64,000 bases of DNA, taken from the NCBI GenBank assembly GCA_030062745.1, contig CP099839.1:32780904-32844903 (forward strand). Reading direction: 5' to 3'. This stretch comes from Capitulum mitella. Lineage: Eukaryota; Arthropoda; Thecostraca; Pollicipedomorpha; Pollicipedidae. The notes below the pieces were generated by a model. That model did no database searches. It worked only from the letters and a program-made list of their open reading frames with translations, and was not told the origin of the DNA. A program made the position numbers and the translations under genes. Numbering within the stretch: position 1 is the stretch's first letter; each line of letters begins with the position of its first letter. Positions 3,520 through 55,143 of this stretch are shown here, one piece after another.

Positions 3520-3532
3520 AGGTCAATGACCT
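3520..3532. promoter_or_regulatory. perfect IR1 nuclear-receptor palindrome
   Basis: AGGTCAATGACCT is a perfect inverted repeat of AGGTCA with a 1-bp spacer. This is the consensus site for the ecdysone receptor heterodimer EcR/USP in arthropods and is also used by some other receptors. The sequence match is exact; function in vivo is not shown. Confidence 0.4.
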
Positions 3533-3689
3533 GGGACGTCGCTTCCGGCCGTCTGCGAAGGCCAGTTTTGTCGGAAATGTCGGGACATCACCATTTTGCG
3601 AAAATATATGACACTCACGAGGCAATTTGGGGTCATACTACGTGGGAACAGACCACACTTATGAGTTCCGCTAAATTCGTATCCGTTTG

Positions 3690-3712
3690 AGGTCACCCGA
3701 GGTCAGTGACCT
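3690..3712. promoter_or_regulatory. composite DR4 + IR1 nuclear-receptor site
   Basis: AGGTCA, four bases, AGGTCA (DR4), and the second AGGTCA is also the left half of a perfect IR1, AGGTCAGTGACCT at 3700-3712. Three receptor half-sites therefore overlap in 23 bases, 168 bp from the IR1 at 3520. The pattern is clear; binding is inferred. Confidence 0.4.
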
Positions 3713-5322
3713 CTGAAGACCATTTTGACCTCCGGTCGACTAGGGTATTTTGATGCGCTGATTTAGACATCGTTATTTTGAACCAATCTCACTCATTCAT
3801 GTTCATTTTATGGCCGCCAAACGCTTGAGATTCTATATCGTTCCAAACGGCCACAGCATTTGGCCTGACCTAGCCTGTGTCACTGAATGGAAGAAGTCAT
3901 GAAAGGTGCCATTAGATTTACAACGTTGTAATGAGTCCTTGCTTCTTTTCCTGTGTCTTCAAGTGTAAAGCGTTTTGTTTTGTAGCCCTCAGAACAGTAC
4001 GCTTCGCGATTTTCACCAGTCTCGGATCATTGCCCTGACCTCGGAGGTCGCTGGTTGACCTAAAACATAACAAACGAATACCATTACATTCGTCTTATGA
4101 CGAGCAACACGACTTTGTGTTCCGCGGCTCTAGCTCAATTAGGGGCCAGTCGCTACGGCGCGCGTTACCCTCATGCACCATCGAAGTTGTAGAAATGCTG
4201 TGCATTGGCGAAGGACAAAACATATCAAAATGACCCAAAGGTGGATATTGATGTTATGCATGTATTCCATGTGACAATGTTTTCATATGATACGCAGATT
4301 TCGTATATCTTGGAATAAATCGGGGTTAGTAAGCATACAGATGAAATCAGGTTGATAAATGATCTCCGTTGTTCCATCGAGTTGTCATTACAAAGTGGTC
4401 ATTGTGTTATCAACAATATTACATATTTTTGTGTGAATTTAAAAGAAATCGAAACAGGTAAAACCAGTTGACGCTGGCTAAAAAATATTCATGGTCAGTG
4501 GGAAATTTGACCTGAAAAGGTCAACTTTTGCGGAAACACATTCCTTGTTTTCTTTGAAAGAGGAAACACATTCCTCCTCTTTCTTATGATCTGTAGTTTT
4601 GTCCTAACATTTTTGATCATAGTTACAATGGCATACGTAGTTGGCTGTCGGTCTTGAACTTAGGTTTTCAATGACTTGTATCTCATGACCTAACCTCACG
4701 AGTTTATGAATCCGAGAATCGAAATCAGGGTCCAGAACAACTCCTGTCATCAGTTTTGAGCGAAACGTGAGAGGGTATGATGAAGTTGTCTTGGTGATAT
4801 GTCCCTTCGGTGACGTCCAAATGCCAAAATGAGTGAAAAGGACTATGTTCTGAGCCATGGGAAGGCCATTTGGACACTCGCACCATCAGATATTGTTTTG
4901 GTTATGGACAGACAACATACCAAGCGTATTATCCGTGGAATAAAAATTTAAGAACGGAAATCATGGTGAGGTGACACGGCGACCTATGTCTCAGGTCACG
5001 AGGCCATTCTTTTCCGAATTGACAGGCGGATTTTCTTTTCGTGTTTGTATTGCTGGAATCTTTGCGATCTCGAAAATGTATAAGTTGAAAATATTTTCAG
5101 TATTTTTCTTGGTGCTACCGCGCTCAGAACGTGCCAGTGTTACACCAAGATCCTAAAAACGTTTCGTTGCATACCTCGTGACCCGTAGACAAGAGAGAGC
5201 TAATATTGTGCCAGGCGGACTCGACGTACCAGATAACCCCGGAACAAATTCTCAGCGCAACCTGAAACATGGAGAGTGTAGGTCGTGCTGCGCTCGGTGG
5301 GGGGGGGGGGTACTTGGGTTAA

Positions 5323-5690
5323 AATGGCAAACGCAAAAATGGCGAATGCCTTTTTGGCGAATTTCTTCTTCGCCAATGCTGGATGGCGAATACTAAACGG
5401 CGACATGTAAAATGGCGACATGCTAAAATGACGAACTGCAAAATGGCGAATGCCCAAATGGCGACGTGTAAAAATGGTGACATGCCAAAATAGCGAACGG
5501 CTTAATGGCGAACGGTTACATGGCGACGTGTCAAAAAGGCGACATGTCAAAATGGTGAACGGCTAAATGGCGACGTGTAAAAAAGGCGACATACCAAAAT
5601 GGCGAACGGTTAATTGGCGAACGGCCGAATGGCAACGTGTAAAAAGTCAACACGTAAAAATGCTGAACGGATATATGGCGAAACGGCCGA
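5323..5690. repeat. foldback element, left arm (TGGCGA minisatellite)
   Basis: About 25 degenerate units built on AAATGGCGACATG and AAATGGCGAACGG, roughly 13-15 bp each. The array is the reverse complement in kind of the array at 6316-6742. The outermost units of the two arms align best, including a shared GGCGAATGCC and GCCAATGCTG block, so the two arms form one large inverted repeat. Such tandem-repeat arms are typical of foldback (FB/Galileo-like) transposons. Confidence 0.7.
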
Positions 5691-6315
5691 TAAATGCATA
5701 AATGAACACGGCCGCCCTGCGCCAGGACAGCCCCGTGGTGAGTTGCTAGCTGCTCACTTTATGATAATGAGCCTCCTCCGGGACTCGAAGCCGGTGCCAC
5801 GGGACCTGAGTGATCTTATCCCCAGGACTTCAGGTAGTTAGTTTGAAGTTGCATACGACGTCCTCCACCTGTTTTCTCAGCACCCAGCATTGCGGCCGGA
5901 ATCAAATTCGAATGGCAATCGATAGCCCTCGTCACTACCAATCCCCTCCCCCAAAACAGCATCATGGATTTTGGCCTGTGTCACGTGACAGATTAGCAGC
6001 GAGGCGTGGAAGAGTCGTCAAAATTGTCCGCCCACCCCACCCCTTTCTCTCTTGTTCGTCACGTCAGGGGTCCACGGAGCTAAGACACTGTCCGGCCCGG
6101 ACTGTGGAGACTGCTTCAGTGCAGCCTTGCGCATAGTCAGTAGCAATCCGGTACTAGTGCTAGCAGTCCCATCAGGCTGCCGTAGCTACGAGGACCATCA
6201 GTCAGTGAGTTGCACAACTGGAGGATGGGTTTCAGACACAGGCAGCAAGGTCCGCTTGACATTAATCTGAGCCCACGCCTATTTACCTAATCAGTTCGGG
6301 TCTGATTTACATTAA
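5691..6315. mobile_element. centre of foldback-type element
   Basis: About 625 bp between the two inverted arms. No transposase or other conserved protein is visible; the open frames are short. A tRNA-like GACTCGAAGCCGG motif occurs near 5784. I treat the whole span 5323-6742 as one non-autonomous foldback-like element. Confidence 0.5.
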
Positions 6316-6742: not shown

Positions 6743-6859
6743 TTCGGACACCGAATGGGAGACACCATCATGTGTGGAAATCAAAGATCGGAGGTATTCC
6801 ATCCAGGCATACGTAATCCCTGCTGTATGTGTCTTGCAGGTTACAATACGTGTACAGCA

Positions 6860-6971
6860 ATGTTTTTGGTTGGCTTGACTGGTGGCATTGCAACAGGGAA
6901 GAGCACAGTGTCCATGATGATACAAGAACAAGGGATTCCAGTCGTGGATGCCGACGTCATAGCACGGAGAG
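6860..6971 (+). CDS. DCAKD: DCAKD coding exon 1
   Basis: Carries the start ATG and the whole P-loop (Walker A). Ends after GCACGGAGAG with donor GTGTGT at 6972, phase 1. An acceptor TCTTGCAG ending at 6839 gives a 20-base 5' UTR in this exon. Confidence 0.92.
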
Positions 6972-9900
6972 GTGTGTCCGCCGTCCTCCATCGAATGACA
7001 TATTTGCTTGTGCAAATGTGTTGCAAATGTGTTTGTGCAAGTGAGGTTTTGTCTGGTATTCAGGCCACGACAATTGGTAAAAAGTCACCCAGAGACTGTG
7101 GAACTGGCCAAAACCAATTTTTTGATATGTTCCGAAAGCAACATTTATCGTTTCGCGCAATCTGCGATTACCTCGCACCGATATTGCTTCTCAGCACTCG
7201 TAATTGATTTGATTATTTGTACCTGCGCCCATAACAGCAGTGTTGTTGGTAAAGCAAAGTGAGCATGTGTTCTGAGAAGGCCCGCTCTTGAGGGGCCCAG
7301 CTTGAGAGGGCGTTATTGGACCAACAGGCGTTCCAGTTCCCAGAACTGTGAGTGAAGGAGCCAGGGGTACGGGAAGGAAATGCCCCCCCCACACACACAC
7401 ACACACTCGGCCGCCAGGCTGCTGAGCTTGATGTGTTCACAGTCTGCTGTCGCCGCCGATCAGCTCGCAACTCGAAAGATTATCCGCTGAGCACAGTTTG
7501 CTGTCATTGCTGACGAGGTGGCAACTCAAAAAATGACTCGCTGGAGCTAACGATGTTATCGATGCTATCGGTCTCACTTAATGGCGAAAAGGAGCTGGAA
7601 TACAGACGATAAATCTGTGCTGGCAGCACGATTCGGGAGTAATGGGAAATATTGGTAAACATTTGGCCGTCGTAGGTCAACGAAGGCCATTTGGAGAAAG
7701 CGAATGATACGTGACGATTCAGGCCAGTGTCCTCTTTGATCGCAGGTATACAGCTAAAATTTGGTATTTGATCAGACACACTCCCTTTAACCCTTTTCCC
7801 CGCAGGGGGCTGAATCCTCCCCCCTTGGGTTTTTGCTTCCCAATTCCAGGCTTTTAAACGCAGCTTCACGGAACTTGGTGACTTTTCCTGTCGATTCTTT
7901 CTACGTACTGCGACAAAATTTCAAAATTCCGTTTTGCTCAGAGGCGGAGGCAGGCAACGTTTTTGGGAGGCACCTCAGACCATTTTTGCCTTGTTGAGCG
8001 TAAAAGGAAAATGGCTGCCAAAATTAGCGTTTTTTGAGATAGAACTTAAAAGTTTATATGGCTGTAAAGGTTAATAGTGGGGCCACGTGCAAATATAATT
8101 TTTATTCAAGTATAATTTTGTTCATGTGAGGTCACTTAACAAGGTCAGGTCAAGGTCGGAAGTCAAAATTTGGTTTTATGGTAATAATTTCGGTGCTATT
8201 TTTTGAAATGCCAAACCCGGAACGAATATGACGTAGGAGGATACCCTCCATTTCTGTATCAACTGTCAGCTTGATATCAGGTCGTGTAACGGAGTTATGA
8301 CCTAAAATGTCAGTGCGCTTACCCTATATCACAATAGCCGTAAAATGGAATTTTTGAAATAGAGTAAATTTAAATGATTGAAAACTTTGGTGCTTATTCC
8401 GTGTATTTACGAGTTCCTCAGCCGCTTTGGCCTTTCTGCTTCCAGAGGGTTAAGAGTCATCCATGACCCTGGACCGACCAGTTCAGTTAGCTGTCTGCAT
8501 TTCATTACAGTCACTGCTTCTGGTTTATCAGGTGGTTCACAGCCGAGACTGGGAATGAATGACACTGCGGTCGGGCCATATCTTGCCTTTTTATGCTGGA
8601 GAGTTTGTCATTTCAGATCGCGGACTATTCGGCGAATGACTCCTGGCAGTACATTAGTCGCCCAAACGACTTCAACCACATCTTGAAACACTGCCAGCTC
8701 TCGTCGTTACGACACTGTGTATCTGGAAAGGCTAAATCACCTTCTGGAGCAGAAGCAGCGCGAAATGACCTGAAGAAGTCTTTTGCTGATGTCAGTGCAG
8801 CCAGCGTCAAATCTGTGGCTGTCATCAGGGACTAAAAAGAAGCTTAACATTATGTTTTTTTGTCTCGATGGAGAAGTCCCTGGTGGTTTCACATTTTGCA
8901 GACCAGGGGCGATGAACTTAGCTTGTTTTATGGCTGACGCTCTGTGCATTCTGAAGCTAAGGCTGTTATAATTTTCAGTCAATCCCGCCTTGGATAAAAA
9001 ATGCAGATAGTAGTTTTCTAGCGTTGTCCAATAGACCCAATGGGAAATAGGCAGTGCTAAGCCTAAGGTCATCTCAGCTACCGAAGAAACCAACTCGGGG
9101 ATAATCAAAGACTAAGAGAACTGGGAATGCTTTTAACCGTGTCTGTGTTTAAATTTTACATGTGTCGAAGCCAACTGAGCGGCATACATGTTTCCTGGAG
9201 TCAGCCAGCGATGAGTTCGCGCTGGTTAATGAGGAACTCTGTGGCATAAAAAAGTAGGACATGGCCCGACTGCAGGGCCCAGGCTTCTGTCAGCCTGATA
9301 AAACAGAAGCAGTGACTGGTCTGAAATGCAGATACCTAAAGTGCACGAGTCTGTGCAAGGTCGTAGATTCTGACCTTCTGGAAGCAGAAAAGTCGGAGAG
9401 GCTGCTGTCATTCGCGGAGAGATGAATAAGCTCCTAGGTTTCCAAACACTGCGGGACCTCGTGCACGACCTGGCAGATATAAATGGTGGACAAAAGCAAG
9501 GCGTGGCGTTGTCGCAGGAGCCCACTGAGAGAATACACGAGGAAAGAAAACTCCAGAATTGACTCCAGAATTGGGCGCAAGTGGTGGAATAATGTCATAA
9601 ATTCTACTGTCTTAACAAATCTGACTACACTAGACAGCTCGTGGTGCTGTCATGATGACGTGAACAGGATAAAAGCCGAGGGTATCTTTGTAGTGTATAG
9701 TCGATGCTGTATTTGGGTGTGGAAAGTAACATTGAAGTAAACTAAATCTTTATTCATGTAGTGTGGAAATAGTTCGTAAATGAGGAGCCAACAGCCTTTT
9801 AATCATTTGATTTCTAATACATACCTAGGCAATTTCGCCCGTGGTGACTGCAATGCGCTAAACATGCGTGGCACCAAATACCTTTCAAACTTTGGACGGT

Positions 9901-12900
9901 AGGCGCAAAATGATTTTATCGGCCGCAAATTCTTAAAATCAGTTTCCATTCTAGCTTCTCGTGGTAGAAAGGGATGCAAGTGGCGCAAACATTTCAGCGA
10001 AACTTTCGTAAGACGAACACCCTAGTATTGACCTCTTCCGATCCTGATCTGCCCTCGCTGGCCTGTCATCACGCTGTGATGATGCGGCCTGAACACGCTA
10101 AATCCTAAATTACCATCACCAGACGGCCCTCACGGACACCGCTGTACACAGACTAGGCCCCCGGTACAGACTTTAAAATGACGTCAGACTTTTTAGATGG
10201 AACGTAACGTCGTTGCAGGATACGTTCGATACGTCCAAGGAGTACATGCAAAAAAGTATCGCTTCTCATCATGTTCTCTAGCACCGCCCCTGTTCGTGCA
10301 TTTGTATGCGTAGGAGGTTATGTTTTGCGTAACTCGTGGCTTGGCATTTTCTGTAGAAAAATATTTGAAAAGATTGTCGACCACCTGGACCACCCGGGAA
10401 TAGATCATTGTAGGATGTACTGCACAGTCACGATCTGAACCGGTCTACCACACACTGATAGCACTGAGTCTTGCGATTCAGAAAATACTTTGTTAGTACT
10501 GGTCATGTGACGGATGACGCCACAGGTCACATGAAACGCATAACACGACGTTGGAAAAAATTGACATTGGTTCGTACATCATGCCATCGGCAGTGCCGGT
10601 CTTAGAACCTTCAGCTAAGTATCAAACAAAAGGTTACAAGCTCCTGCATCAGAAGCATGCCGAAATGCCTAAAAAAATGTCGGGTGACGGTCAGCCTAGG
10701 TCAGGTGAAATGTTGGTCTTACTTTACATGCCAAAGATCGATACTTGCTCGCAGCCGTTCTAATCCGCGTGAGAAAAAGGACGGGAGTGAAGCCTGATGA
10801 TCAGTTTTGTATTGCCTGCTTTTTATTGAGTCATTGTCAGTCTACGTCAGATCAGATAAAGCTGTATTACTCTTCCTGACAAAGAGCAATAATTACTCGC
10901 TGTGATTCTTAACTGTGTCAGGTACAGAACTGAAATGACATCTCGCGACAATTAAATCGGCTCCGTCTGCTCTTTATCGGGTCAAGGACCCGGGCCCGGT
11001 CAGGGCAGATGGTCGCTTTTCTTGTTCCGGCTAGGAGCAATAATTGCTCGATACTGTTATTGAACGATTTTCCATAGACTATGTTGTATTTCTTTTTGTT
11101 TTGATGTACCTATGACGTGACCTGATTTGACCTCACTTTGCCTATGGTGAACCTTGCTAAGGAGCGCATATATATTTGCTTGTCTGGCTTGAACAACGGG
11201 GAAGGTCAGCCGCAACCAGTTCTGTCACCCACAATGCAAACCAGTCGAATCATATGCATATGAATAAGCATGACCTGTAATGTTGATTTGTCACGGCTGT
11301 TTTTTTTGACGGGGGGGGGGCGTTTCCTGTGTGAGCCAAATAATCCATGCATTACATTCGCGAATATTATTGAAAAAAATCGAAGTATGATCGCGCCACC
11401 GCCCGAAGAGACGAACACATGCATGCGTGGGTTCACTTATGATGTTATGTCTCCATGATCTGACCTAGCATGGCAATGGTTTTGATGTCAAAATGTGTAA
11501 AATTGACTGATGAACAGGTACTGGAAGTTGGGTTGGGCTGTGACGGTTCCGAAGCTGCTCCCGAAAAACCGAGGGGGCGCCCAATTTGACACCCCCCGGG
11601 CGGTGCCGAGTTAAACACTAACTTACGAAGAAAATATTAGTATGTTAACAAGAGTGACAAGAAGCAGACATTCAGAAAACCAGGAGTCCCTTAACAGTGA
11701 AAAAGCGGACGCTGGAGACGCCGCCTCTAGCGCAGATCATAACTCGGGACTGACGGCCACGCCACCGCAGAGGATGTCTGCTACGGCGACCCAGGACACG
11801 CGTCTGTTGGTGAAGATGATGCAGGCACAGTAGCAGGTGCTGCTGTCGGTTCTGCAAGAGCAACAGAAGATGCAGGTTGAAATGCAGAAGAAGAGCCGGC
11901 AGCTCGGCAACAAGTGATATTGGTGAGCCAGAGTCCGGCGAGTCTTCAGTCACGTCAACGACCAATGATTAACCCTGCTAAGATTCTGACATCATCGCTG
12001 CCGGACAAAGCGCAATGCGACATGTGCACGTAGCAGCAGCGAATCTGGCGGTGAGATATCTTGCAGTTCGCCCAGATGTCTGATTGGGATGTGGTGAGCA
12101 CTGTCGCCAGTATTCGATTGCAGTGTGGCGAGAAAATGAAGCGGGTTATAGAGGCGCAGTATGGCTTCCAAGCAGGGAAGGGAAGGGAGTAAGGGAAGGC
12201 CTTGCGGTGATCGAGACGTTATATGCCGTGAAGGACATCGTCAGAACCTCCAACTCTGCTTGAAAGAAATCTAAATTCCACCAACTGGAGCAACGCGCAG
12301 GCGAGGCTAGAAAGGATTTTGTGCATCGCTGTGAACAACAGGCCCTCGAGTGCGACTTCCGCTGTCCACACTCCCAAAGTGACCTTAGTGAGGAGCAAAT
12401 CAAGGGCCGGGTGCTGGTTGGCTTGAACAGTGAACTGCTGAAGCTGAATCTCTACCAGAACTTCGACAAGTACATGTCGCTGGAGGAATTTATCAGTCAT
12501 ATTGAGGCATTCGAGTCTGCTGCAGCCTCAGCACTGAACAAGGTCCGAGACCTGGAGGTGAGATGCATGGAAGCCGACAGCTTGCCCTCTGCACTGGAAG
12601 AGGCTGCTGATGGAGATACGGCCATGCTAGCCGCACTGCAGGTTACCGACAGAAAGACCAGGGCAGAAAGCAGAAATCTGTGTTCCGCAGCGACATAAGT
12701 CGTGGTCGTAACAAACCCCGTGAAAGCGGTACGGAAAAAGGTACGGGGAGTCACCAAACGAAATTGCGTGCTTTCCGGACGGCGAGGCCATAGCAGAGTC
12801 CATTGTCGTCAGCGGGTGAACGCCATGGCCACCAGGATGATACCTGACTTTGCTGATGAGGAGGGTGATAACCGCGTTCGCTGGTCGGTCAACAGATTGA

Positions 12901-15361: not shown

Positions 15362-18300
15362 GTCCTTATTCATGGTCACAAGTCGTTCAGGGTCCTTCGA
15401 AATGTTTTGTAGATCATGTCCTTGATGATCCAATGGCAGCCACAAGCCAGTGACATGGTCTCCTTTGAAGTTCGGTGTAAGGGTCATTGTGAGACAAGGG
15501 GCCAACGAGGTATCACCTTGTAACCAAATGACCCAGGTTGTTCCAACGTCTGGTGATATGATTTCAGTTGTGGAGCCGGGGACGAGAGCATGGTGTCAGA
15601 TCCGGGAAGCGTTCGGCCCGGGAGTGTTCCTGGACAGTGGAGAGCTGGATCGGGCTGCCCTAGGCAGGCTCATCTTCAGTGACCAAGAGAAACGCCGCCA
15701 GCTCAATCGCATTACACATGGAAAAATACAGCTTTTCATGATCATTGAAACACTCAAACTCTTCCTGCGAGGTATGTGGAGGACAGTATATATTTATGTA
15801 TATATATATAGGTATGTATGTATGTATGTGCTGCTACAAGCCATTCTGGACTAGGCTTAAATCATTTGGCACATTTTTCAAGTGGTCTAACTGTCCCTTT
15901 TTAGCAAGGGCTTAGATGGGAAGTTACATTTGGCTATTCCACGTCAAATCGCACAACAAATGACCCGATCTCTTTCCAGCTTGATGAAATGTGTTGCGCT
16001 CGTAATACCTATTGCAAATTGTCTAGCCATAAAGTTTTAGCCCCGGGTGACCTATGAGATTAGTATGTGTTAAATGGGTGCGTATACAAACCATGAAAGG
16101 TCGCCTGTTTTTTGAGGACATTGCATAATTCAAATACCCATTGCTCGCAGATAGATTGCCGCAGAAAGATGCGATTAGCAGCATTCGAAAGACAAATGCC
16201 CCACTTCTCATAAATGAACACCTTTTTGCTGGTGACCTTGGGATGACCCTTAACATGACTAGTCACAAGAAACATTTTCGCTTTTAATCATGTTTGCCCG
16301 CCGTGATTATCGTGAAAATGTAGCACAATATGTACCCCAACTATCCGCAATAAGCGTGGGAGAACGTAACATTCCTGGGCACATCGAAACTTTTTCAGAT
16401 ATTTTGACTGTGGTATTACCAAGTGGCGCTTGAGAAACATGCCCTGAAGATATATGACATATATTGATTGATTCCGTGCTTTTTGTCTATCCGATTGTTC
16501 AGCAGTTTGGTGTGCGTAATACGCTGCGTGTCTGCTACATATCAGCGCAGTTTTAAGTTGTTGGACGCGAAAAGTCAGTGGTCATGACACCCCGCCACCA
16601 ATCCACCCCTGCCATCCAGACCTGACGTATCCGTTCTTCATATTTGCACGGTAGTGAGTCTCGGGTGTTTGGGTGTTCCCAGATTTTTAGGCCAGCTGAA
16701 GCGATCATAATCGGGCATTGGGGATTTTTGAAGGTCAACTGGGGTCGCTGACCTCGATTGGCCTTGGAAAACCTGTTGGCCTCGGAGCATTGATAGCTTT
16801 TTATGGGCGCTGATTCCGAATTTCGCATGTATGGAAGTTTATTTTGTGACCCACTCTGTATGTTTTCTGACTTGATGTTTCTTTTGTATGGCAGTGCCAC
16901 ACAGGCATTGTCAAACCGCAAGCCTGTTTATGCCCTTGGCATCCTTTAACATAGCTTCCGATGCATTGAGCAGACCAAATAAGGTCAAAACACGTAACAG
17001 AACTGAAGTAACATGTAAGCCAAAGACCTCTGGCGAGCATCGAAATCAGCGTCCCCAAAAATTTACAATGATCCCAAGTCAAAATGGGCCATCCAAAGTC
17101 AGCCCACTCCCCGATGCACGACTGTGATTAGCACAGTTGGTTTTTGGGTCTAAGAACATCGGATAGATCTGCTGTCGTGGAAATGTGAAGAATGAATATG
17201 TCAGACTTGGTTGGCAGGGTGTTGGGGTGTCATGACCTTTCACCTTCCTGATCAAGCAGTTTGAAATTAAACTTGTGTAAAAGACACGCAGGGCAAAAGA
17301 CGTGCACACCAAAATGTGGAACAATCGAACGAACGAAAAATCTGGAATAAGTATTCGTCAGATGGCATCAGGGCATATTTCTCAAGCGCCACTTGCCAGC
17401 ACTAAAATCAAGACATCTGAAAAAGTTTCGATTTGCCCAGAAAGGTTTTGGCTACGCTTATTTTAGATAACGGGTGAGTCCGAAAGGATATCTTACCTTC
17501 TTTTTCTGATAACAGGACGAATGGCATGGACCGTGCCCATGTACGAATGGCATGGACCGTGCCCATGTATATGTGTATGATATCATGAGAATCCGCAACT
17601 CACGGAGAAACAATAAAATCAGCTGCCATATACGTCGAAGCATTTGCAAGTTTCGTCTGCTTGTAATACCACATGTTTCAGGTGGCAGCCCTTTCGCTTG
17701 TCGCACTGAGCCGCGCGCTTCTTCACCTCCTCCATCAACCGGGCCGACCTGTGTGCCGAGATCCTCTTGACCTCGTGCTGCACTGCCTGCCTGAGTTCTT
17801 CGAGACTCTTGGGACACCCCTGGTGCACTTTGTTCTTGAGGTAGCCCCACGGGAAGAAGTCCAGAGGTATTAAGGCGCATCAGACAGTAACGTTTACGGA
17901 GTGCAGGGACGTTTCCCTTACTGTGTGTGAGATGATGTGGGCCCAGATTCCGCAGTTTTGGGTGCTCACACCCCCATCCAGCAGAAAATAGGCCTCGTCA
18001 CTAATCCAAATGTTGTTAATGAAGTCGGTGTCAGCAGTCCACTTGTTACAGAACCAGCGTGCAAAAGTAACTCTGAGTCTTGTCGTCTTCAGACAACGTT
18101 GGATGGACCGATAGTTTGTATGGCGCTAGTCCAAGACCTTTTTTGAGAATTTTTCGCGCCTTGCTGCAACTGGCGTCAATTTGGGTGGCAGTTTTCTTGA
18201 TTGACCTCGTGGGGTTTCGAGGACGATGGCTGCGACCTTTCCATTGTCTTCCGCAGTGCGTTTTGCACGTTTTTACCCACTGCGCCATTGGCTGAGGTTC

Positions 18301-21300
18301 TCAACGCTGCCTTCAGCTAAAAATTGTTCAGAAAGTCTTCTGACAGCCCTGGGATGGGGTGCGTAGCGGACGTTGAAGGTGGACCGGAAAGGAAAGGCAT
18401 AGAAAGAGTTGCTCTTATTGGTCCTGTTTTAAAGTAAAGTTGTACGACTTAAGCTTTTCTTCCTTGCTCAGCGAGTGCATTATGAGGAATGAGCAACACC
18501 GTACCATTCAGTTTTCCATTGCATGTGCATTCCAAAAGTATTCATTCCATGCTGAACTGATTTTTGGTCTTACAGTGCCCAAATAAAAGTAGGGAATCAT
18601 TTCGGACACCCTGTAATTGGGACAAATTTTGGTACATTTTCGCGTAGATCACGGTGGGCAAAGATGACTCGAAACAAAAGACTCCTTGTGACCTAGTTAG
18701 GTCAAAGGTCATCCCGTTGTCACCGACAAAAATGCGTTTTTTATGAAAAATGGAACATTTATTTTTCGAATGGCGCTAATCGCACTTTTCTTGGACAATC
18801 AGTCAGCAAGTTACGGGCATTTGAATTATGCAGTGTCTGTAAAAATCGGTGGCCTTTCATGACCTTTGACCTGGACCTCAGAGGCCACCCAGGGCTAGAA
18901 ATGTATGTCCGGCTATTTCCCAATATGTGCTATGAGCTTACCAAATGTCATCAAAATCAAAAGGGATCTGGTCATTTCTTGCGCGACTGGACGTGGCGCA
19001 TTCACAAAAACATTCACGTATTACATCTCAAATTATTAACGTTTCGAGGCAAAAAGTGGTAAAAGTCCCATCCATAATCCCTCGTTTCGTGCTAACTTGA
19101 TCGAAACGGGCCCATAAACAACAGAGTTATAACAAGCCCAAAAATGTCCCCTATATTTGCCTTTTCCGCCTATCCACCCCTTTCAGAATGTTCAAAAATT
19201 CGTTTCATTAAAATATAGCTTACATCATGCAAAATCGATTGCCGTTGTTGTTGTTGCGTTGTTGTGCTGGTGTTGCGATGTTCTCGGATGTTTAGGCCTC
19301 GAGATCTCAGGGGGGCCGGATCCGCCCCCCCCCCGGAATCGGCCATACCGTCCAGTCCTCCCTCTTGCCTTAACCCTATACCTAACCCTCGGGTATAGAG
19401 TTAAAGCAAGGAAAGTTTTCCTTAACTCTAGGACTTCGGGGTGGGACGGACTAAAGATGTAATGAAGTTGGAGCAACGGGTATATTGGGATCCGTGTTTG
19501 TGTTTGTCATGCTTCGAAGAGACGGAGAAATCGTTTGCGTAAATCCAGGCAGAAATCAGACCAAACGGCCCTGAAGTGTTTAAATATGCTGTATTGTGGG
19601 GTTACTGAAATGTAACTTTTCTGTCCGCGAGAATACCAGAGTTTCTTTATGCGTGCGACATGGATTTAACCCGTGCCGGACCGCGGGTCGAAGCCATGCA
19701 CGCCCGACTAGGGGGGGGGGCGATTGACCGCCCCCTCTAACTCACAAACGGATGGTTGCACGATAAAAATAAGCACACCGTTGGAAAGCTCGTGACGAGT
19801 AGAACTCAACACTGATCTCATTTTTAGTTCTGGATAATATGTAAGCCATTTACTCCCTATATACGTTTTCTCATAGCCGCCTGCATGAGACCGAGAAACG
19901 GCCTGGATCTCAATGGCAGTGACTAATAAAGTCTAGATATAGGCACCAGTGGTCAGGTAAAAGTCCGCAGATGGCGATACACGTCTAATTTCTCTGATTT
20001 GTTTAATACATACGCCGAAACGTTGAGTTAAAGACATGGCAATTTTCGCACCGTTTAAACTTCTTCAACTTCGTGGTATTTTTCGCAACTATGCGAGCCA
20101 GGTCTGCCATTTTCCACACGATCTGAGTCATTCATCGCCGATTTTGATGGCAGTGCATTTTGGCTCATAATAGTTATTTGTGAACTGACCTCGGGCCAGT
20201 GGTCGGAGGTCATTGAAACTGCCCATTGATGGCGAATGGGTGGCTGGATCTCCCGACACTCGCATTGTTGCCAAAAAATTCCGTCAATTTGCGAAAAAAA
20301 AACGAGGACGTGTTGAAAACGGGCTTGACCTTTGGTCATTGGCCCGGACTTTTCCGAAAAATCCAAGATAGCAGATTTGTTGCATTTACCAAAATATCTA
20401 ACCTTTGAAAGTTTTATTGTGAGGTCATGTTTTGTCTAAAAGTTACGGGGCGCTTAACTTTTTTGAACATAGGTCCACTTCACCTGACCTAGGTTAGACA
20501 CCTTTCTTGACCTGAGGTCGAAAACTGGATACAAGATGAAAAAATGATCAAGCAAAAGTTACACAAATGTTGGTAGCGCTGCGTTTGTTCGTTCTAGCAA
20601 ACTCGGAAAAACGTCAGGGGTGGTCAGCCGACCGCCCAGTCGGGGGCGGGTTGATTTGAACTACGAAACACAGGCAAGAAACCGTATTCCGAAATGAGTA
20701 ATGTGTCGGAAACGTTAAAAACGCTATGTTGCGAATTTAATTTTTACTTTTTTCCCCAATAATAAGTTAGGAATTATTACCACATGACCATCTTTGCCAT
20801 ACGATCTTTGCGATCTTTTGCTACACGTTTTGCGAACGATCTTTTGCCATGCGATCTTTCACCCCATGCAGTCTTTTTCTTAGGATCTTTTCCCTGCGAC
20901 CTTTTGCCATGTAATCTTTTGCTTGGTAGTCCCTGAACTTTTAAGGGCATTGCCAGCAGTGATATGTCTACATCCATAAAGAATAAAGTGTCTGACGACC
21001 TTATCACATGTCGGTGCACGCCTCAAATAGACTCCTCATGACGCATGCAGTTTTGTGTCTGAGGTGAAACCATTGTGCTTGCCGTGTCGTTCATTGCAGT
21101 TATTTGAACTCAAATTTTGGAATTGCTGATCCTGTCTGGTGTAAAATGACATCCTTGTTGAAGCTCGAAAAGCAATGTATGGACCTTCAGGTGATTATAA
21201 TATGGTTCTTGACTTTCTGGATTGACCACTTTGTTCGCACTTGGACAATGCATTGTCAGGTAATCTTTATCTGGGTTCATTGTATTATGGATGCCAGTTG

Positions 21301-24222: not shown

Positions 24223-24364
24223 TCCTATGCGAAATAAAAACCGTGCTTGCATTTTTTACGTTTCTCGTGATGTACTCCGTTTATTTCTTGCTTACAGTAT
24301 ACTTATGCACAATCAATACACAATGCACAATACAGATGTGATTGTGCGCTCATAACACCCATCG

Positions 24365-24545
24365 AAAAATGGCCAGCCATAAATCTTGAGTCCCAGGTGA
24401 CCCCTGAGGTCAAAGTTACAGGTCCTGAAAAGTCACCGATTTGTACGGACATTGCATGGTTCAAATGTCCTTAACCGGGTGATGGACTGTCACAGAAATA
24501 TGCGATTAGCGCCATTCGAAATGTCATGCTGTGTATGACAAACCT
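24365..24545 (+). repeat. interspersed repeat family C, copy 3
   Basis: Same orientation as 16021-16267; has AGGTGACCCCTGAGGTCA and ATGCGATTAGCGCCATTCG. No coding. Confidence 0.5.
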
Positions 24546-26699: not shown

Positions 26700-28994
26700 T
26701 GAGCCGTTGCCACTTTTGCACCTTCCAAAAATATGCATTGGCCGAAAGGTGAAGATTACCAATTCTGCCCCTCCCCCCGCTCACCGCCCTTCCAGAGATC
26801 TCGAGATTCATTCGTCCAGTGTTGATGGGATGAATGCCATTCAATATGTTTCAACGAGATCTCCAATTCCGGACCCCAAAATTCAAAAATTGCGAAAATG
26901 GGGCATGGGGGCAAACAAACTCTAAAATTTGGGGTTTTTTGAAAGATCACTGCGGCCGTGTTTACCAACCAATTTTCATGGGAATAACACGGTTCAGCTT
27001 GGAATGTCCAAGTCTTTCATATACCGAAAGCCGAAATTTAAAGCAGAAAACTATAGGCAGTTCCAGGGAGGACAAGAAGGGTGATTTTTGAAATAAGAAA
27101 TTCCCTTTGTTTTTGTTTGTTTTGGGTGATATAAACATCAGATGTATAACTAGCAAGCCAGTTTAAGTTTATATGTAGCGCAGAGGTGGATCCAGGTAAA
27201 CAAAATTGGTAGGGCACCATAAGCATAATAGTGTGCTCCCCCATTTTTCCGGTACCTGGGTGTGCGTTCGCCTGAAAATGTGTGTGCATACGCATTGTTT
27301 AGGATGTGTATGGCTATATAAATGAGTCAGTGATCTTTATTTCTACTCAAAATGTCGCGATAGTGAACCACACAACCTTGCAGCTTCACGCACTGCACAT
27401 TACCGCCGAAAACGGGGGCTTGGAACCGCCTCTGCGGGAACGATTTTTTTTAATGTTGACAAAACACGTCTGTATCATTTCCATGAAATGCCAGAAAATC
27501 TTGTGGCGCTGCGGCAAACAGTGTGGGAGTGACAAGCAAAAAGACACGGGTAGCAGAATTTCCCCCCACCCCCCCACAGGGAATAGGGGTTAAATGAAGT
27601 GTTTAGACCCGTCTCCGGCCGGGCTCAGAATGCCCAATGCCCGGTCGGAGGGGAGGCGGATTTCCGCACCTCCCAGGATCTCGGCTCCCGTATATCGCAC
27701 GGAAAAAAGGAAAACACCGGCGGAAAGGTTTTGTCAACCGAGGCGAAAACATTCAAGAGTTTTGACCTCAGGTCAATTTTGAGGCCACCAGACGCCACAA
27801 AACGTCCTTGGAATTAGGTGAATAGACACAATGCCTTGTCCCTGAAAAGCTGAACTTAAACGACATATACTGAACCGTAAAACAATAGGGAGTTCATTGA
27901 TATCAATTTTGGCCTTTTACAGGGGTCAGGTCAGGTCACGTCATCGTTCCAATGACGTGACCTAAAATGGTCCACTTGTGAACGGCTAACATCCTCCGTT
28001 GCATCTTACTTATGACCATGTTTTTATAGCTAATTTGTCTTTTCAAGGGTGCTGAAGAGGTACTAAAGCACCGTTGAGGTACTCAAGCACCATTTTAGGT
28101 TGACCCAACGGCCAGCTAAGATCAGTTAAGGTCAAATTTTTGAATGATCAGAATAAAAAAATCCGAAGTTTTTACAGGGTCCACGTTGCTAGTAGAATGT
28201 TTTTCCGCGATCAGGAAGTCCCATTGATGGCCGAGAGAGGTCGCATGAGGTCAGCTGATGTCACTTATGTGCCTTGTATTTCGTTCGCCGCCAGTCTCCA
28301 GCTCCACCTTCGCCGACCGCCGGTAGAGATAAAAAAGTGCATGACCATCTAGTATGTGCTTTATAATCTCGATTTGCCTTTTGCATTATCTTTACGCACT
28401 ACAGCGACCAATCCAAGGCAAAAAAAATTTGGTGCACCGCTCAGGTCACAAGATGTCATTGACCTCGGATGACTGGATAATCTGCAGTGATCTCGTTTTT
28501 TCTATGGTGCTAGGTAAGTTTATTTTTGGCCGTGAATTGGCACCCAGCGTCCATTTTTACCTCAAAGATCAACAAACTGCCAATTCTGAGCAGACCGTTT
28601 GGATTTTGCAACATGTAGTCCCATATTGGGTCATGACCCCACCCAAAGTCACTGGTGCTCTGGTGTCGTGATGGCAGGACATGTTAGGAATCATGCTGCT
28701 GATAATACATGAGCAGCGAGATCCCATAAAAATCCGCTCAAATTTAGGCCAGATCCGAAAAATGGCTAAAATTGACCTAACCTCAGGTCACTGACCTCGA
28801 ATTTTCCGCAAAATCCGAAATATACAAGTTGTGCGTTCTATCATATTCTATTACTCCTGCAACCATTAGTGAGCTCGGTCTTCCCCCGAAAAAGTTACAG
28901 GGAGTTGAATTTTTGAAAAGGTTGGCCTCTTTGACCCGACCCAGGTCACTGATCTGACCTGCTGGGAACTTTAAATATCACTTTAAAAAAACAT
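26700..28994. other. no gene; repeat-derived intergenic DNA
   Basis: A hAT-type start CAGAGGTGGATCCAGG occurs at 27181, and GAATAGGGGTTAA resembling a TTAA MITE end at 27581-27593. Region 27760-28965 is rich in AGGTCA-type motifs. No protein family recognised. Confidence 0.45.
28785..28797. promoter_or_regulatory. perfect IR1 nuclear-receptor palindrome
   Basis: AGGTCACTGACCT, an exact IR1. A near copy, AGGTCACTGATCT with one mismatch, lies at 28943-28955. Both are in repeat family B just upstream of the hAT transposase gene. Confidence 0.4.
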
Positions 28995-29054
28995 GTGTGG
29001 TATGGTGCGCAGAAAACTGATCAGTGCCCTTTGATTATTTCCCACCAGTTTGAG

Positions 29055-37785: not shown

Positions 37786-38007
37786 CAAAACAGCACTGCG
37801 TATTCATACAATGCTACTTACCTCAAAGTCTGCTGGTGTCACCGTTGACGTCACCGCGCTGTATTTCTGGCCATTAATAACCTTCTGAACTGAGTAGGAC
37901 TGAGTAACCAGCAAGTTAATCAGTCCTGTTTCTGGCTAGTCAGTCCTCACTTGCTTTTGCCTTTTAATGGCTCCATTACCAGCCAAGTTTTATGTTCTCC
38001 TGTTTCA

Positions 38008-39206
38008 CCCTATTCCCGGAAGGCTAGACGGTATGGTCGATTCCCGGCAGGGTGGGCGGATTCGCCCCCCCCCCCCGAGATCTCCAGAACTATTCGTTCG
38101 ATTTTATCGCAACCAACGGCAATCGATTTGCCATGACGTGAACTACATTATACACAAAGAAATTTTCGAAATTTTGAAATGTGTGGATACAGGGGGCAAA
38201 AAATGTCAAAACCAGGGGTATTTTTGGACTTCTCATAACTCCGTTGTTTATTGACCGATTTCAATGAAATTGGCATGAATCGAGATATTATGGATAGGGC
38301 TTTCACCATGGGTACACAAATCTGAAATTTTGAGAAAATTCATAGGCGTTCACAAGGTTTTAAAATTAGGAGGACTAGTTTTCTAACAATTGAATGAACA
38401 AAAGCAGCAAAAACTTTTTTGGCTTCTGCTAATCGTGTTATGCTAAAGAAGTACAAATCGCATCACAATGTTTATATGTTAGCATAGGCGATGCCAGGGA
38501 CATGAAAAAGGGAAAACTGTCATGGTCACACGTTCTTCAGATCAACTTGTGACCTCTGACCTTAAATTACCTCCAGTGACCTTGGGGTCACTTGGAATGA
38601 TCTCGTGTGGATTTAATATTATCTGTAAACGTTTTCAATCATTTGAATTAACTATTTTAAAAATTTCATTTTATGGCGATTGCGATGTAGGGTACGTGCA
38701 CAGACATTTTAGGTCATAGCTCCGTGACCCGACCTGATATCAACCTGAAACTTGACACACAAGTAGAGGGGACAGTTTTACGTCATGTGTGTTCCGGGTT
38801 TGACATTTGAAAAAAACGGCGCCGAAATTATTGCAAAAAAACAAATTTTGACTTTTGACCTTGACTTGACCTTGTAAAGTGACCTCAGATGAACGAAATT
38901 ACATCTGCACATTGCCCAACTATTTAGCTATTTACCCATATAAAGTTTTAACTTCTATTTTAAAAACGCTGCTTTTGGCAGTCATTTTTCTTTTACCCTG
39001 AACATGGCCAAAAATGGCCTATGGTGCCTCCCAAAAACGTTGCCTGGCTCCGCCCCTGAGCAAAACAGAATTTTGAAATTTTGTCACGGCACGTAGAAAG
39101 AATAGCTAGGAAAAGTCACCAAGTTTCGTGAAACTGCGTTAAAAAGCCTGGAATTGGCAAGCAAAAAATCCGAGGGGCGGATTCAGCCCCCCTGTCGGGA
39201 ACAGCG
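38008..39206 (-). mobile_element. TTAA MITE, copy 4 (full length, inverted)
   Basis: 1199 bp. Plus-strand left end CCCTATTCCCGG preceded by TTCA (decayed TTAA); right end CTGTCGGGAACAGCG before TTAA at 39207-39210. The whole interior matches copy 1 in reverse, including TGACCTTGACTTGACCTTG at about 38857-38875. Confidence 0.8.
38550..38562 (-). promoter_or_regulatory. perfect DR1 in TTAA MITE copy 4
   Basis: TGACCTCTGACCT equals AGGTCAGAGGTCA on the minus strand. Same position in the element as the DR1 in copy 6 (54567-54579). Confidence 0.4.
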
Positions 39207-39339
39207 TTAATACAGGGATAGCTTGCCATACTAAATGGCTTCAGCAAAGTTGGAATGTATTTGCTTTGTGCACTCCATTGGAAAATCAACCTTCATTGTC
39301 CTGATTGCTAACTTGTTGTGCCTGGACGCTGCGCTTGAT

Positions 39340-51122: not shown

Positions 51123-51127
51123 AAACA

Positions 51128-51154: not shown

Positions 51155-52470
51155 GTGAGTATGCGATTGTGACCAGGTTACCGATAATCCATTCCTTTTG
51201 GGATTAATGAAGTTTTGTCGCTACCCCGGCTCATTCAGCATCACTTTGCTCTGTTATCCCCTTGTTGTTCGTCCATAGCAAATGCCATGCAGGTGTTTGT
51301 GTTGTCACACATTTCATTTCCTTGCAATACGTGGTGCTTCTCATTTTCTCGCTGCTTCAGCCAACTCATACACTTTATTCTGTTTCAGTGCGTGTATGCC
51401 GCGTGGGGTGATTATCTTATCCAGAGCATTCATGGGGAGGTAGGGGCTGGCAACTACAGCTACTACAAACTGCAGTGGGATGGGCCGGTGACCATCGTGC
51501 TGGACACCCTGTGAGTTGATCACATTGGGAACTTGGTGCCTGCCTCACCATTATGAATGGAGTCTGGCCTGTTTGTGAAGTGACCGATCCATTGAGGTGG
51601 CCGCACTGCATGGAAACGCTCGGGAGTGGTTGGCTTGTGACGATGTGGTATCCTGACCAGACCCTGTGCCCATAGGAGTGGTGACGCTGATCTTTACGTG
51701 TCGGAGACACACTTGAAGCCCAGCTTTGATCCGGACCAGTTTGACTTCAGCTCCACGACGTGTGGCCTAGATTCAGTCGACATCCCCAGATCGTACGTGC
51801 GTTCTTCTGCTGCCGTTGTTTTTGGGTTATTATTTTTTTTAGGTCATGGTAGAGGTAGGGGGTATAGGAGGTAGTCATCCGATGCATGGTAAATAATACT
51901 GGAATCCGTATTTAAAAGGTGGTGAAACTAGGTTTGTCTTCATGTGCATCCTGTCAGCGAAAAGGACATGTGAAATAAAAATGGGCAGATAAATGAAACC
52001 AACTCCGCTGCGCCGCTGGAAACGGCGCTGCGTTTGTGGCGTTATGTCTCTATGGCACGTCGCTTCGGGTCACTGACGTCACATTTCCCCGAGGCACCTT
52101 AATAGATTGACACCTCCATCCGGTTCTCGCGAGTTTGTCGCGCGACGTAGTGGCTGTCATTTTTCTCTTGCCATCTGCCCCTGTGACTCTGTAAAGCCAT
52201 CGACGTCATATGAGGTATCTTCGGGACAGTCCTTGATGCCATCAGTTCATCAGATGTACTGTTGTGTTGTGGCATCATTATGTCTTCACCAGGTGTCCCC
52301 GTCCGCTGGGCGTTTCGGTATACGGCCACCCGTCTCGGGAGCGGTCTTTGTACGAGCTGCGGCTGGTGTATCGCCATCCAGACTACCTGGACCAGTTCAC
52401 GCTGCTGGACCAGAACGGCACCGACGACCAGCTGCTGCAAGCCCTCCAGGAGCGCTCTGGTCACCACCCG
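51128..52470 (+). CDS. UPF0669 family secreted protein, C6orf120-like, 3' end unresolved
   Basis: Coding exons: 51128-51154, 51389-51510, 51676-51792 and 52293 to at least 52470; phases 0, 2, 2, 0 all fit and give 148 codons. The joined start MICALLVLM-CVYAAWGDYL is a short signal peptide. The family pattern is clear: GEVGAGNYSYYKLQW, SGDADLYVSETHLKPSFDPD, TTCGLDSVDIPRS, RPLGVSVYGHPS, matching human C6orf120 (191 aa, secreted; a role in T-cell apoptosis has been reported). The last about 40 residues are not assigned: either the donor GTCAGT at 52471 leads to another exon, or the frame continues to TGA at 52873 through FLLLVIIPMFIYIV. Exon 1 starts 5 nt after the rhodanese stop, with A at -3. 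Confidence 0.85.
51389..51510 (+). CDS. UPF0669 exon 2
   Basis: Acceptor CTGTTTCAG, donor GTGAGT at 51511. Encodes CVYAAWGDYLIQSI, HGEVGAGNYSYYKLQW and VTIVLDT, the conserved N-terminal part of the mature protein. Confidence 0.88.
51676..51792 (+). CDS. UPF0669 exon 3
   Basis: Acceptor TGCCCATAG, donor GTACGT at 51793. Encodes SGDADLYVSETHLKPSFDPD and STTCGLDSVDIPRS, the most conserved block of the family. Confidence 0.88.
52293..52470 (+). CDS. UPF0669 exon 4
   Basis: Acceptor TCTTCACCAG; encodes CPRPLGVSVYGHPSRERSLY and LRLVYRHPDYLDQF. The candidate donor GTCAGT at 52471 is phase 0; the frame also stays open to 52875, the last part being TTAA-MITE sequence. Confidence 0.8.
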
Positions 52471-52689
52471 GTCAGTGGGTCCGCACACCACACAGTGCGA
52501 CCACTGTGGACACCACACGGTGGGATCGCTCAGGATACCAAAGAATTTCTTTTACTTGTTATAATTCCAATGTTTATTTACATTGTTTGTATTGATTTTG
52601 AAGTAGTTAGCACCCATCGAGAGCTTAATGATGGTGGTTTTCTCTTAGACCTACGTGTTGAGAATTTGGCAAAATTCACAAGCATTCAG

Positions 52690-53460
52690 AGGGTGCAAAA
52701 AATGGAAGGTATATATGCCTTTGATCAAGGTAAAGCTCCATCTTTTTCTGCTTTACTGTCCGTGTTATACTTGGGAAGAACATATCGTTTGAAACTGTAT
52801 AGGGTTGGAATAGGCGTTGCCAGGGACATGAAAAGGGACAGTGTCCCTTTCCTCAGATCACCTTATGATCTTTGATCGTAGATGATATCAGAGTGACGTA
52901 AAATAGCTGTCGGCTTATTTTACAGTGTTTGAGAACGATTCCAGTTATCTGAATTGACTACGTTTCTCAGTGTCCTGCGTACAGCAGCTGTAATACGAGG
53001 TACGCGCGCCGACATTTTATGTGAAAGCTCCGAGACCGGACGTAGTATATATATGAAGCTACAAACGCAAGTAGAGGACACTGTTCTTCGTCATGTGTCC
53101 CAGATTTCTATGTAAAAGGTAGCATAAAAATTGCGCATCAAATAAAATTTTTGCTTTTGACCTTCACCTAACTATGCAAAATTGCCACAGGTTAACCAGA
53201 ACATTATGTTATATATTTTTTTTAGCTATTTACGTTTACTGTGATATGGAACTTTAAGTTCTTTCTTCAAACTGTATTTGGGCAATCATTTTTCCTTCTG
53301 CGCTCAGTGGTGGTAAAAAGGCCGAAGACGCTTCCCAAAATTGGACCTGGTTCTGTCCTTGAGCATAGTAAAATTGGGAAAATTTGACATGGGATGTCGA
53401 AAGGAGAGTTAGAAAAAAACATCAAAGTCCGTAAAGGTGCTCCAAAAGTCCTCGAAATGA
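52690..53460 (-). mobile_element. TTAA MITE, copy 5 (partial, inverted)
   Basis: Plus strand shows AGGCGTTGCCAGGGACATGA, CCTTATGATCTTTGAT, ATTTTTGCTTTTGACCTTC, and CCTGGTTCTGTCCTTGAGCA in the same order as copy 4. Both termini are lost. It lies head to head with copy 6. Confidence 0.6.
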
Positions 53461-53919
53461 GAGCAAAGAAGAAAACTGATGAGAAGTCTAAAGCTCCCAC
53501 CATGCAGGAATGTGGTCATCTGTGCTTGCATCACGTGATGCGGTGCTTCTCATCACGGGAGACGACAGTTGATCTCGGTAGCAGTCACATCAGCTGGATC
53601 ACAGAATCAACTGAAATCGGTATAGTAAACGGACCTCCTGGCAGTTTCTGCGGACAGCGTCATGGAGTGCCTCATCACTCGAAGACATTAGTTGACATCG
53701 GAAGACGACCACTGGAGTCGGTCTGATGGACTGACCCCCTGACAGGTTTTCCGGAGTGTCGTGGGTCACCCCATCACTGTTGTAACCATGGGACATCTTA
53801 TTTTTGTAAATGACTTCGAAGACGTTTTCGGATTTCGTGTCGGTTTTTGTGCCGTCCAGCGGGGTGTATTTGACTTTTACCTCTTGTTCTGTGGTGGAGA
53901 CTTGTTACTGGCGATTAGT
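53461..53919. other. no gene recognised
   Basis: Two loosely similar segments around CATCACGTGATGCGG (about 53530) and CATCACTCGAAGACATT (about 53672), suggesting a degenerate repeat of about 150 bp. No coding. Confidence 0.4.
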
Positions 53920-53923
53920 TTAA

Positions 53924-55143
53924 CTGTATTCCGGGCAGGGGAAGGGGGCAGAATGCGCCCTCCTCGGGTCTTTTGTTTGCCAGTTCCATATTTTCGACGC
54001 GGCCTCACAAAACGTGGTCATTTTTCGTACCTATTCTTTCTACGTATTGTGCCAAAATTCCATAGTTTTATTTTGCTCAGAGCGGAGTCAGGACACGTTT
54101 TTTGGGAGGCCCCTCAGGCCATTTTTTGGCCTTTTATGGTGAAAGAAAAATGGCTGCCAAAAAGGGTTTTTAAGATATAATTTAAAATTTTACATCGGTG
54201 TGGAGCTAAATAGCTGGGCAAGCGTACACAAATAACTGGTAATATCAGGCCAGTGCATCGGGCCAGGCCAAAATCAAAAGGCAAAATTTTGGTTTTATGC
54301 TAACAATTTTGGCGTTTATTTTCCTAATGCAAAGCCCAAAATAAATGACTTAAAAGAATATTCTCTACTTGTGTGCCAAGTTTCAGGTGGATATCAGGTC
54401 CGGTCGCGGAGCTGTGACCTAAAATGTCAGTTCTCATACGCTGTATCACGACAGCCGTAAACTGGAATGTTAGAAATAGTGTTTCAAATGATTGGAAACG
54501 CTTTCAAACAATATGAAATGCACTCTAGGTCATTCCTTGTGACTTTGAGATCATTGGAGGGCACCAAGGTCAAAGGTCATAAACCGGTCTGATGAACATG
54601 TCACCGTGAGAGTTCCCCTTTTTCATGTCCTTTGCGCCGCCTATGCTAACATGCAAACGTGGTACAATTTGTATTTTTCAGTACAAGATAACTCGTAAAA
54701 GCTTATATTGTTGTGTTAATTGGGTTTTTTGAAGAAATAGTCCTCCCATTTTCAAAAGACCCGTATGAATACCCAAAAAATCTTATGAACGTCTATGAAT
54801 TTCCTCAAAATTACAAACATATGGACCAATGGAAAAAGTCCCAGCTAAATCCTCGATTCATGCCAATTGCATCAAAATCGATCGATAAACAGTGGAATTC
54901 TAATGAATGCACATGTATCCCCCATTTTGACTTTCTGTCCCCCGTATCCCCCCGTTTCAAGATTATGAAGATTTCTATTTACGAAAATGCACGTTACATC
55001 ATGGCGAATCGATTACAGCTTGTTGCGGCGAAATCGGATGCGTAGTTCTAGACATCTCGGGGGAGGGGCGAATGGGGGCCATCTCGGGGCCCCCCCCCAC
55101 CCGTTGGGAATGGTTCATACTGTTTGGCCCTCCGGGAAAAGAG
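53924..55143 (+). mobile_element. TTAA MITE, copy 6 (full length)
   Basis: About 1220 bp from CTGTATTCCGGGCAGGGG after TTAA (53920-53923) to TCCGGGAAAAGAG before TTAT. The interior matches copies 1 and 4 (AAAACGTGGTCATTTTTCG, TTCTACGTATTG, GGTGGATATCAGGTC). Perfect DR1 at 54567-54579. Confidence 0.75.
54567..54579 (+). promoter_or_regulatory. perfect DR1 in TTAA MITE copy 6
   Basis: AGGTCAAAGGTCA in the same element position as the DR1 of copy 4. About 1.8 kb upstream of the XPF start codon. Confidence 0.4.

Follow-up and report, generated by a model that had tools for sequence, protein, structure and literature searches.

AGGTCA half-site arrays, partly repeat-borne, in a 64-kb stretch of the Capitulum mitella genome: candidate remnants of dimeric nuclear-receptor sites

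A stretch of 64,000 nucleotides from Capitulum mitella (contig CP099839.1, positions 32,780,904 to 32,844,903; this whole stretch is the window, and all positions below are counted from its first letter) carries intact dimers of the nuclear-receptor half-site AGGTCA, arranged as inverted repeats with one base between the halves (IR1) and as direct repeats with spacers of one or four bases (DR1, DR4). This locus raises the question of whether such dimers form a transposon-borne hormone-response network, as a preliminary description had proposed, or have another origin. The observation proved real and stronger than described, and the evidence points mainly to remnants: we give a probability of about 0.5 to the reading that the sites are what is left of dense AGGTCA arrays, some of them in old repeats, which would once have served as dimeric nuclear-receptor sites and would by now have decayed.

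Excess and spacing of the half-sites

All of the dimers named in the preliminary description are present, namely exact IR1 (AGGTCA-N-TGACCT) at 3520, 3700, and 28785, exact DR1 at 18699 and 54567 (plus strand) and at 18860 and 38550 (minus strand), and an exact DR4 at 3690. That list lacked a further exact DR4:

11118..11133, minus strand: second exact DR4

Beyond it, exact pairs occur as DR0 (1974), DR2 (62658), DR5 (38856), DR7 (8129 and 38867), and IR6 (28943), and as everted repeats (ER), namely ER1 (27763), ER2 (55213), ER4 (4508 and 18689), and ER6 (28773).

AGGTCA or TGACCT is found 115 times when overlapping copies are counted and 112 times when they are not; 300 dinucleotide shuffles of the whole window gave a mean of 33.1 and a maximum of 52. 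Close pairs, comprising all 27 arrangements with spacers of 0-8 bases, number 20 (mean 0.19, maximum 2), among them the three exact IR1 and four exact DR1, for which the shuffles averaged 0.000 and 0.010. Another 300 shuffles confined to 500-bp blocks agree (means of 32.5 half-sites and 0.18 pairs), and in neither set did any shuffle exceed 52 half-sites or two pairs. When 433 hexamers with at least 40 occurrences were ranked for close pairs, simple repeats being excluded and the highest 40 listed, AGGTCA came first with 20 pairs vs 7 for the runner-up. The excess over shuffled sequence is clear, an absence of enrichment can be rejected, and chance or base composition, which the shuffles refute for the window, is a highly improbable source of the sites. 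Chance is thus far exceeded, and the enriched unit is the half-site array, beyond IR1 and DR1 alone. Any preference for IR1 and DR1 among the exact pairs is weak: with the homologous pair counted once, nominal P values are 0.015 (IR1) and 0.085 (DR1), and in random draws some IR or ER type reached 3 of 19 pairs in 25% of cases and some DR type in 60%.

A sharper layout emerges when one half of a dimer may carry one mismatch and the repeat families A, B, G, C, and D are reduced to one copy each, a reduction that also applies to the decay counts given below. Under these conditions DR4 is represented by 16 pairs at 12 separate loci (the next DR spacings reach 6), and IR1 by 6 loci (the next IR or ER spacings reach 3). 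Four settings of a jitter null that preserves local density, each with 1500 draws, gave means of 2.1-3.2 loci for DR4, and in no setting did any of the 1500 draws reach 12 at any of the 26 DR spacers; for IR1 the means were 0.8-1.0, with P of 0.007-0.012 as the maximum over 52 IR and ER spacers. DR1 is weak in the same nulls (P 0.02-0.12). Between their halves the 12 DR4 loci share no common sequence: the spacer columns carry 0.0-0.2 bits, so that these loci are not copies of one duplicated word. Such a layout is that of a dimeric DNA-binding protein and would fit a receptor that partners RXR. EcR/USP is reported to have its highest affinity for IR1, followed by DR4, and the two spacings together would suit a partner of the NR1H type, for instance EcR/USP or, in chordates, LXR/FXR. 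Of the receptor assignments made in the preliminary description, that of IR1 to EcR/USP agrees with this layout; for that of DR1 to HNF4/USP, the preference for DR1 over other spacings is weak.

The distance from one half-site cluster to the next tends to be 145-195 bp, and a second group of distances falls near 300-340 bp. With families A, B, C, D, E, F, and G at one copy each, periodicity is strongest at 164 bp (P 0.002-0.006), and the scan-corrected P of the first peak is 0.005-0.025. In the hexamer and segment comparisons, from which tandem arrays were also removed, AGGTCA ranks first of 147 hexamers for the period, closely followed by GCAAAA (z 3.04 vs 2.99). A separate count of pairs at 145-195 bp, in which only family A was collapsed (to copy A3), placed AGGTCA fourth of 385, after three G+C-rich words. 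The segments between neighbouring clusters are unlike one another: none of 36 comparisons in six arrays gave P < 0.05. We regard the 164-bp spacing as suggestive; a value of about 164 bp resembles a nucleosome repeat length.

Repeat families and the decay of their sites

Family A, about 1.2 kb long, was defined by self-comparison and alignment; copies A2, A3, and A4 were recovered by self-comparison, alignment, and an end scan, and A6 by the first two.

1632..2837, plus strand: A1, full length, with TTAA and CCCTATT-type terminal inverted repeats
7787..8388, plus strand: A2, truncated
38004..39210, minus strand: A3
53920..55146, plus strand: A4
19057..19404, plus strand: A5, 3' part, adjoining a family B copy
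52742..53467, minus strand: A6, diverged
26784..27588, minus strand: diverged relative of family A, seen by profile only, in two pieces (expect values, E, of 2.8e-11 and 8.7e-8)
38550..38562, minus strand: exact DR1 in A3, at an ancestral position shared with that of A4
54567..54579, plus strand: exact DR1 in A4, at the same ancestral position

A1 has TTAA at both ends (1632 and 2837) and terminal inverted repeats that start with CCC (TTAACCCTATTCCCGGC on the left, TTAACCCTATTTCCGG on the right). The end scan found the left-end TTAA in A1, A2, A3, and A4; in A3 and A4 the right end is altered. The window holds 10 end-like sites, compared with a mean of 2.1 and a maximum of 7 for shuffled motifs, and no listed reading frame of at least 150 amino acids lies within A1. 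The TTAA and the CCC-starting inverted ends place family A with piggyBac-type elements, as a putatively non-autonomous one. The half-sites of its consensus are central (positions 390-560 and 714 of 1253), and subterminal transposase sites were rejected on account of this internal position. Of the four copies that span the DR1, two have it intact; A1, which has an 8-base gap, and A6 are without it, and A2 is missing the stretch. In the profile-only relative the middle is unmatched, and there are no exact half-sites.

Families B and G have no recognised ends. For the three family G copies, motif-masked leave-one-out E values are given; the family G profiles also contained a doubtful stretch at 3460-3770.

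18614..18996, plus strand: family B copy with both DR1s
15939..16343, minus strand: family B copy
24345..24521, minus strand: family B copy, partial
18699..18711, plus strand: exact DR1 in family B, degenerate in 15939-16343, its stretch missing from 24345-24521; intact in 1 of 2 copies
18860..18872, minus strand: exact DR1 in family B, intact in 1 of 3 copies and degenerate in the remaining two
20270..20560, plus strand: family G copy (E 7.7e-10)
28720..29010, plus strand: family G copy (E 1.4e-5)
59860..60190, plus strand: family G copy without exact half-sites (E 1.3e-6)
28785..28797: exact IR1 in the old family G, degenerate in 20270-20560 and 59860-60190; intact in 1 of 3
3520..3532: exact IR1 (AGGTCA-A-TGACCT), in no detectable repeat of the window
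3690..3712, plus strand: composite of DR4 and IR1 (AGGTCA-cccg-AGGTCA-g-TGACCT, the IR1 at 3700), in no detectable repeat

The preliminary description had placed all of its dimers in interspersed repeats. This is correct for the DR1s (families A and B) and for the IR1 at 28785 (family G), but it is not confirmed for the remaining three (IR1 at 3520, IR1 at 3700, DR4 at 3690), for which self-comparison of the window found no repeat. A profile link of their stretch to family G (E 0.0034) hinges on the motif and was lost once this was masked (no match up to E 10). Half-sites are found at 3.6 per kb in family A, 8.3 in B, and 20.6 in G, vs 1.35 outside all labelled repeats, where they are themselves in excess (67 vs 24.7 expected). 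Family C, a diverged repeat with copies at 35445-37088 and 43921-45369 that are about 66% identical, contains 4 half-sites in 3093 bp. Three arrays are as follows:

3520..4061: 9 half-sites arrayed in four groups, spaced by about 160-190 bp
27763..28465: array of 9 half-sites, including the ER1 and one-mismatch DR4 at 27923, 28119, 28238, and 28443
28773..28960: array of 5 half-sites, ending where a broken hAT-like frame begins

No profile built from families A, B, E, F, and G and six array regions joined all arrays, and a single module common to them was rejected. These profiles brought up the diverged relative of family A and a third copy of family G. With the motif unmasked, they also linked 57980-58520, an array region, both to 27598-27788 (E 6.7e-7) and to 19576-19803 (E 0.0084), and 10480-10760 to 10828-10902 (E 0.0046); the similarity between 57980-58520 and 27598-27788, both beside half-site arrays, perhaps represents another old repeat. 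One pattern scan of viral contigs and one of genome contigs for relatives outside the window gave 0 matches.

If the sites were still of use to the cell, their positions might be expected to persist among family copies. In half or more of the spanning copies they do not, the dimers being kept in 2 of 4 copies (A), 1 of 2 and 1 of 3 (B), and 1 of 3 (G). The half-sites of the family A consensus are retained in 16 of 29 cases, vs 42% for other consensus hexamers (five copies, A5 omitted), and show no clear sign of constraint. A comparison of ordered copy pairs made without correction for ascertainment, in which half-sites are identical in 32 of 72 cases vs 14.9% for other hexamers (again with A5 omitted), might suggest constraint; this was discarded, since a difference of this kind is largely expected from ascertainment.

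The neighbourhood of the exact sites points in the same direction. With tandem arrays excluded as well, single-transition neighbours of AGGTCA occupy 38 of 3043 positions within 30 bp of an exact site vs 166 of 49659 elsewhere, a 3.7-fold excess, while transversion neighbours (27 near exact sites vs 315 elsewhere) are raised 1.4-fold (Fisher P 3e-4). Of 65 control hexamers, one exceeds AGGTCA in its transition ratio, and the control median is 1.15. The half-site consensus of the receptors is RGKTCA (PMC1785376). Four of the variants raised near sites, AGGTCG (9 vs 2.2), AGGCCA (12 vs 3.1), AAGTCA (9 vs 2.7), and AGGTTA (6 vs 2.0), fall outside it; of two variants that it permits, the transition GGGTCA is raised (9 vs 3.3), and the transversion AGTTCA is not (1 vs 2.3). 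This pattern of transition variants reads as the mark that mutation has left on decaying AGGTCA arrays.

Genes and other sequence features of the window

The window has a G+C content of 46.6% (from base counts), and its gene content looks animal-like.

40003-41541, minus strand: CwfJ-domain gene, which we take to be CWF19L1-like
within 6545-7204, plus strand: CoaE (dephospho-CoA kinase) exon
50568-51119, plus strand: rhodanese-domain gene
28953-31650: broken hAT-like transposase in three frames, labelled from its translation (Pfam gave no match)

There are no AGGTCA half-sites in 38900-44300, a stretch that contains the CWF19-like gene, and there is one in 48500-53100, which contains the rhodanese gene; in both cases the limits were set after the distribution had been seen. 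The CoaE exon has a one-mismatch DR4 (at 7674) within a distance of about 0.7 kb. No convincing inverted ends were found around the hAT-like frame within 27000-32500; the array precedes the frame on the 5' side, three half-sites fall within the end of the frame, and none occurs from 31228 to 35480.

Several features stand apart from the AGGTCA arrays. A palindrome resembling the cAMP response element, TGACGTCA, occurs 8 times (2698, 10179, 23446, 37846, 45722, 45918, 52074, and 58950), or 16 times vs 1.7 expected when both strands are counted; ACGTCA is raised throughout the window, and not near AGGTCA clusters. The stretch 5336-6741 is element-like, with two inverted arms (5355-5613 and 6463-6721, 74% complementary) made of AAATGGCGA-type short tandem repeats. 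Two GGGCCC-rich repeats (13736-14430 and 26004-26698) are 96.6% identical and separated by 12267-12268 bp; a recent duplication or insertion is the probable cause. Finally, 37544-37781 is a near-perfect palindrome, largely of TA repeats, with 91-bp arms that are 98% complementary and 56 bp between them.

Origin of the arrays and comparison with known systems

We favour the following course of events. Some of the arrays lie in old interspersed repeats (A, B, and G); where the remaining sequence comes from is not visible in the window. The source sequences would once have borne binding sites of a dimeric nuclear receptor that partners RXR, perhaps used to switch on transcription of the element itself; after these sequences had spread, ordinary mutation would have removed sites from the copies, and the exact IR1 and DR1 seen today would be the survivors. 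Several results weigh against this reading. Its repeat origin is shown for a minority of the sites, since 67 of the 112 half-sites lie outside all labelled repeats, and there are few copies per family. The DR4 peak stems from pairs of an exact with a one-mismatch half (10 vs a mean of 2.2), and pairs with a mismatch in both halves show no excess of DR4 (1 vs a mean of 3.85; for IR1, 4 vs a mean of 1.54), so that the peak is not independently replicated. Moreover, 3 of 60 sampled control hexamers, the highest 12 of which were listed, have 14 pairs at a single spacing, nearly as many as DR4 with its 16; we attribute these high scores to the tandem repeats of the window. Family A half-sites are kept somewhat more often than other hexamers, which may reflect weak constraint, and two transversion variants, AGGTGA and AGGTCC, are also raised near sites.

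Two rivals dispense with a receptor. AGGTCA might be the recognition word of another protein, a transposase or a host factor for movement, its likeness to receptor sites being coincidental. The higher density of the word in families A, B, and G than outside labelled repeats favours this idea, as does the fact that repeated internal words bound by transposases are known in other transposons; yet the half-sites of the family A consensus sit centrally rather than near the ends, the hAT-like frame has its half-sites in a 5' array and inside its end with none across 31228-35480, and DR4 and IR1 are the spacings of nuclear-receptor dimers. Taken together, we consider this explanation unlikely. Local duplication of short AGGTCA-bearing words could, without any binding protein, have built up homogeneous arrays in a small number of ancestral elements before these spread and decayed. 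A short GGTCA repeat of four units at 27924-27943 illustrates the process, the decay pattern requires no function, and the lack of a DR4 excess in pairs with two mismatched halves is in keeping with it. The 12 DR4 loci, however, have unrelated spacers and include both orientations, and no neighbouring inter-cluster segments of the six arrays resemble one another at P < 0.05, which leaves word duplication on a similarly low footing.

A network still at work, in which host receptors (EcR/USP, HNF4, or others) bind the copies and regulate nearby genes, would account for the abundance of exact IR1, DR1, and DR4 far above chance, for the DR4/IR1 layout, and for the one-mismatch DR4 close to the CoaE exon. 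It also has a precedent in primate Alus, where several repeat-borne DR2 recruit RARs (PMC1785376) and HNF4alpha binds (PMC3252374). Against it stand the retention of family A half-sites at a rate not clearly above background, the transition-type decay that takes in variants outside the consensus, and the near absence of half-sites around the CWF19-like and rhodanese genes in stretches whose limits were set afterwards. Of the original proposal, then, the strong enrichment, the partly repeat-borne position, and the DR4/IR1 peak with one mismatch stand; a working network is not supported by the window, the dimers being lost in part of the copies. We think such a network improbable, although it is possible that single intact sites still take part in a living one. 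Just as doubtful is a broader scheme in which the array-bearing families would follow one rule, with DR4/IR1 dimers grouped at intervals of roughly a nucleosome (about 164 bp), acting as chromatin-phased platforms for RXR partners that would drive the elements under hormone control, and of which a part might still be seeding hormone-responsive chromatin.

Decayed receptor arrays, the reading we prefer, can be set beside several known systems. That repeats can carry receptor sites is already known from Alus (PMC1785376, PMC3252374). The DR2 retinoic acid response elements of Alus resemble the present case in that a non-coding repeat has spread receptor dimer motifs; Alus carry mainly DR2, which originated for the most part through CpG deamination in a non-consensus motif, along with half of the genome's consensus DR4s, whereas here arrays with IR1, DR4, and DR1, partly in three families, are decaying away from AGGTCA (PMC1785376). 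HNF4alpha sites in Alus are likewise receptor sites in repeats, Alus having been raised there as a possible protein sink; binding was measured in that study, while the sites of the window are known from sequence alone (PMC3252374). Family A shares with the coral CMITEs, piggyBac-type miniature inverted-repeat transposable elements (MITEs), the TTAA target, inverted ends starting with CCC, the lack of coding capacity, and an internal part of unknown role, but CMITEs measure about 100 bp compared with about 1.2 kb, and an AGGTCA array is not among the features given for them in the text available (PMC2872659). EcR response elements of Drosophila, such as those of hsp27, include a DR4 and an inverted repeat (spacing unspecified) and use the AGGTCA half-site; they belong to single genes and were studied by binding competition, unlike the partly repeat-borne arrays of the window (PMC8435907). 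Among the listed hits from the open-licence literature, judged by titles and the openings of abstracts, we found no report of AGGTCA-array repeats in invertebrates.

A cheap way to tell selection from neutral decay is to take, around intact sites, the ratio of transition to consensus-permitted variants. The window displays both the raw material and its decay, and if repeat families beyond primate Alus also spread receptor dimers, what is seen in Alus may be a general route to the rewiring of hormone circuits.

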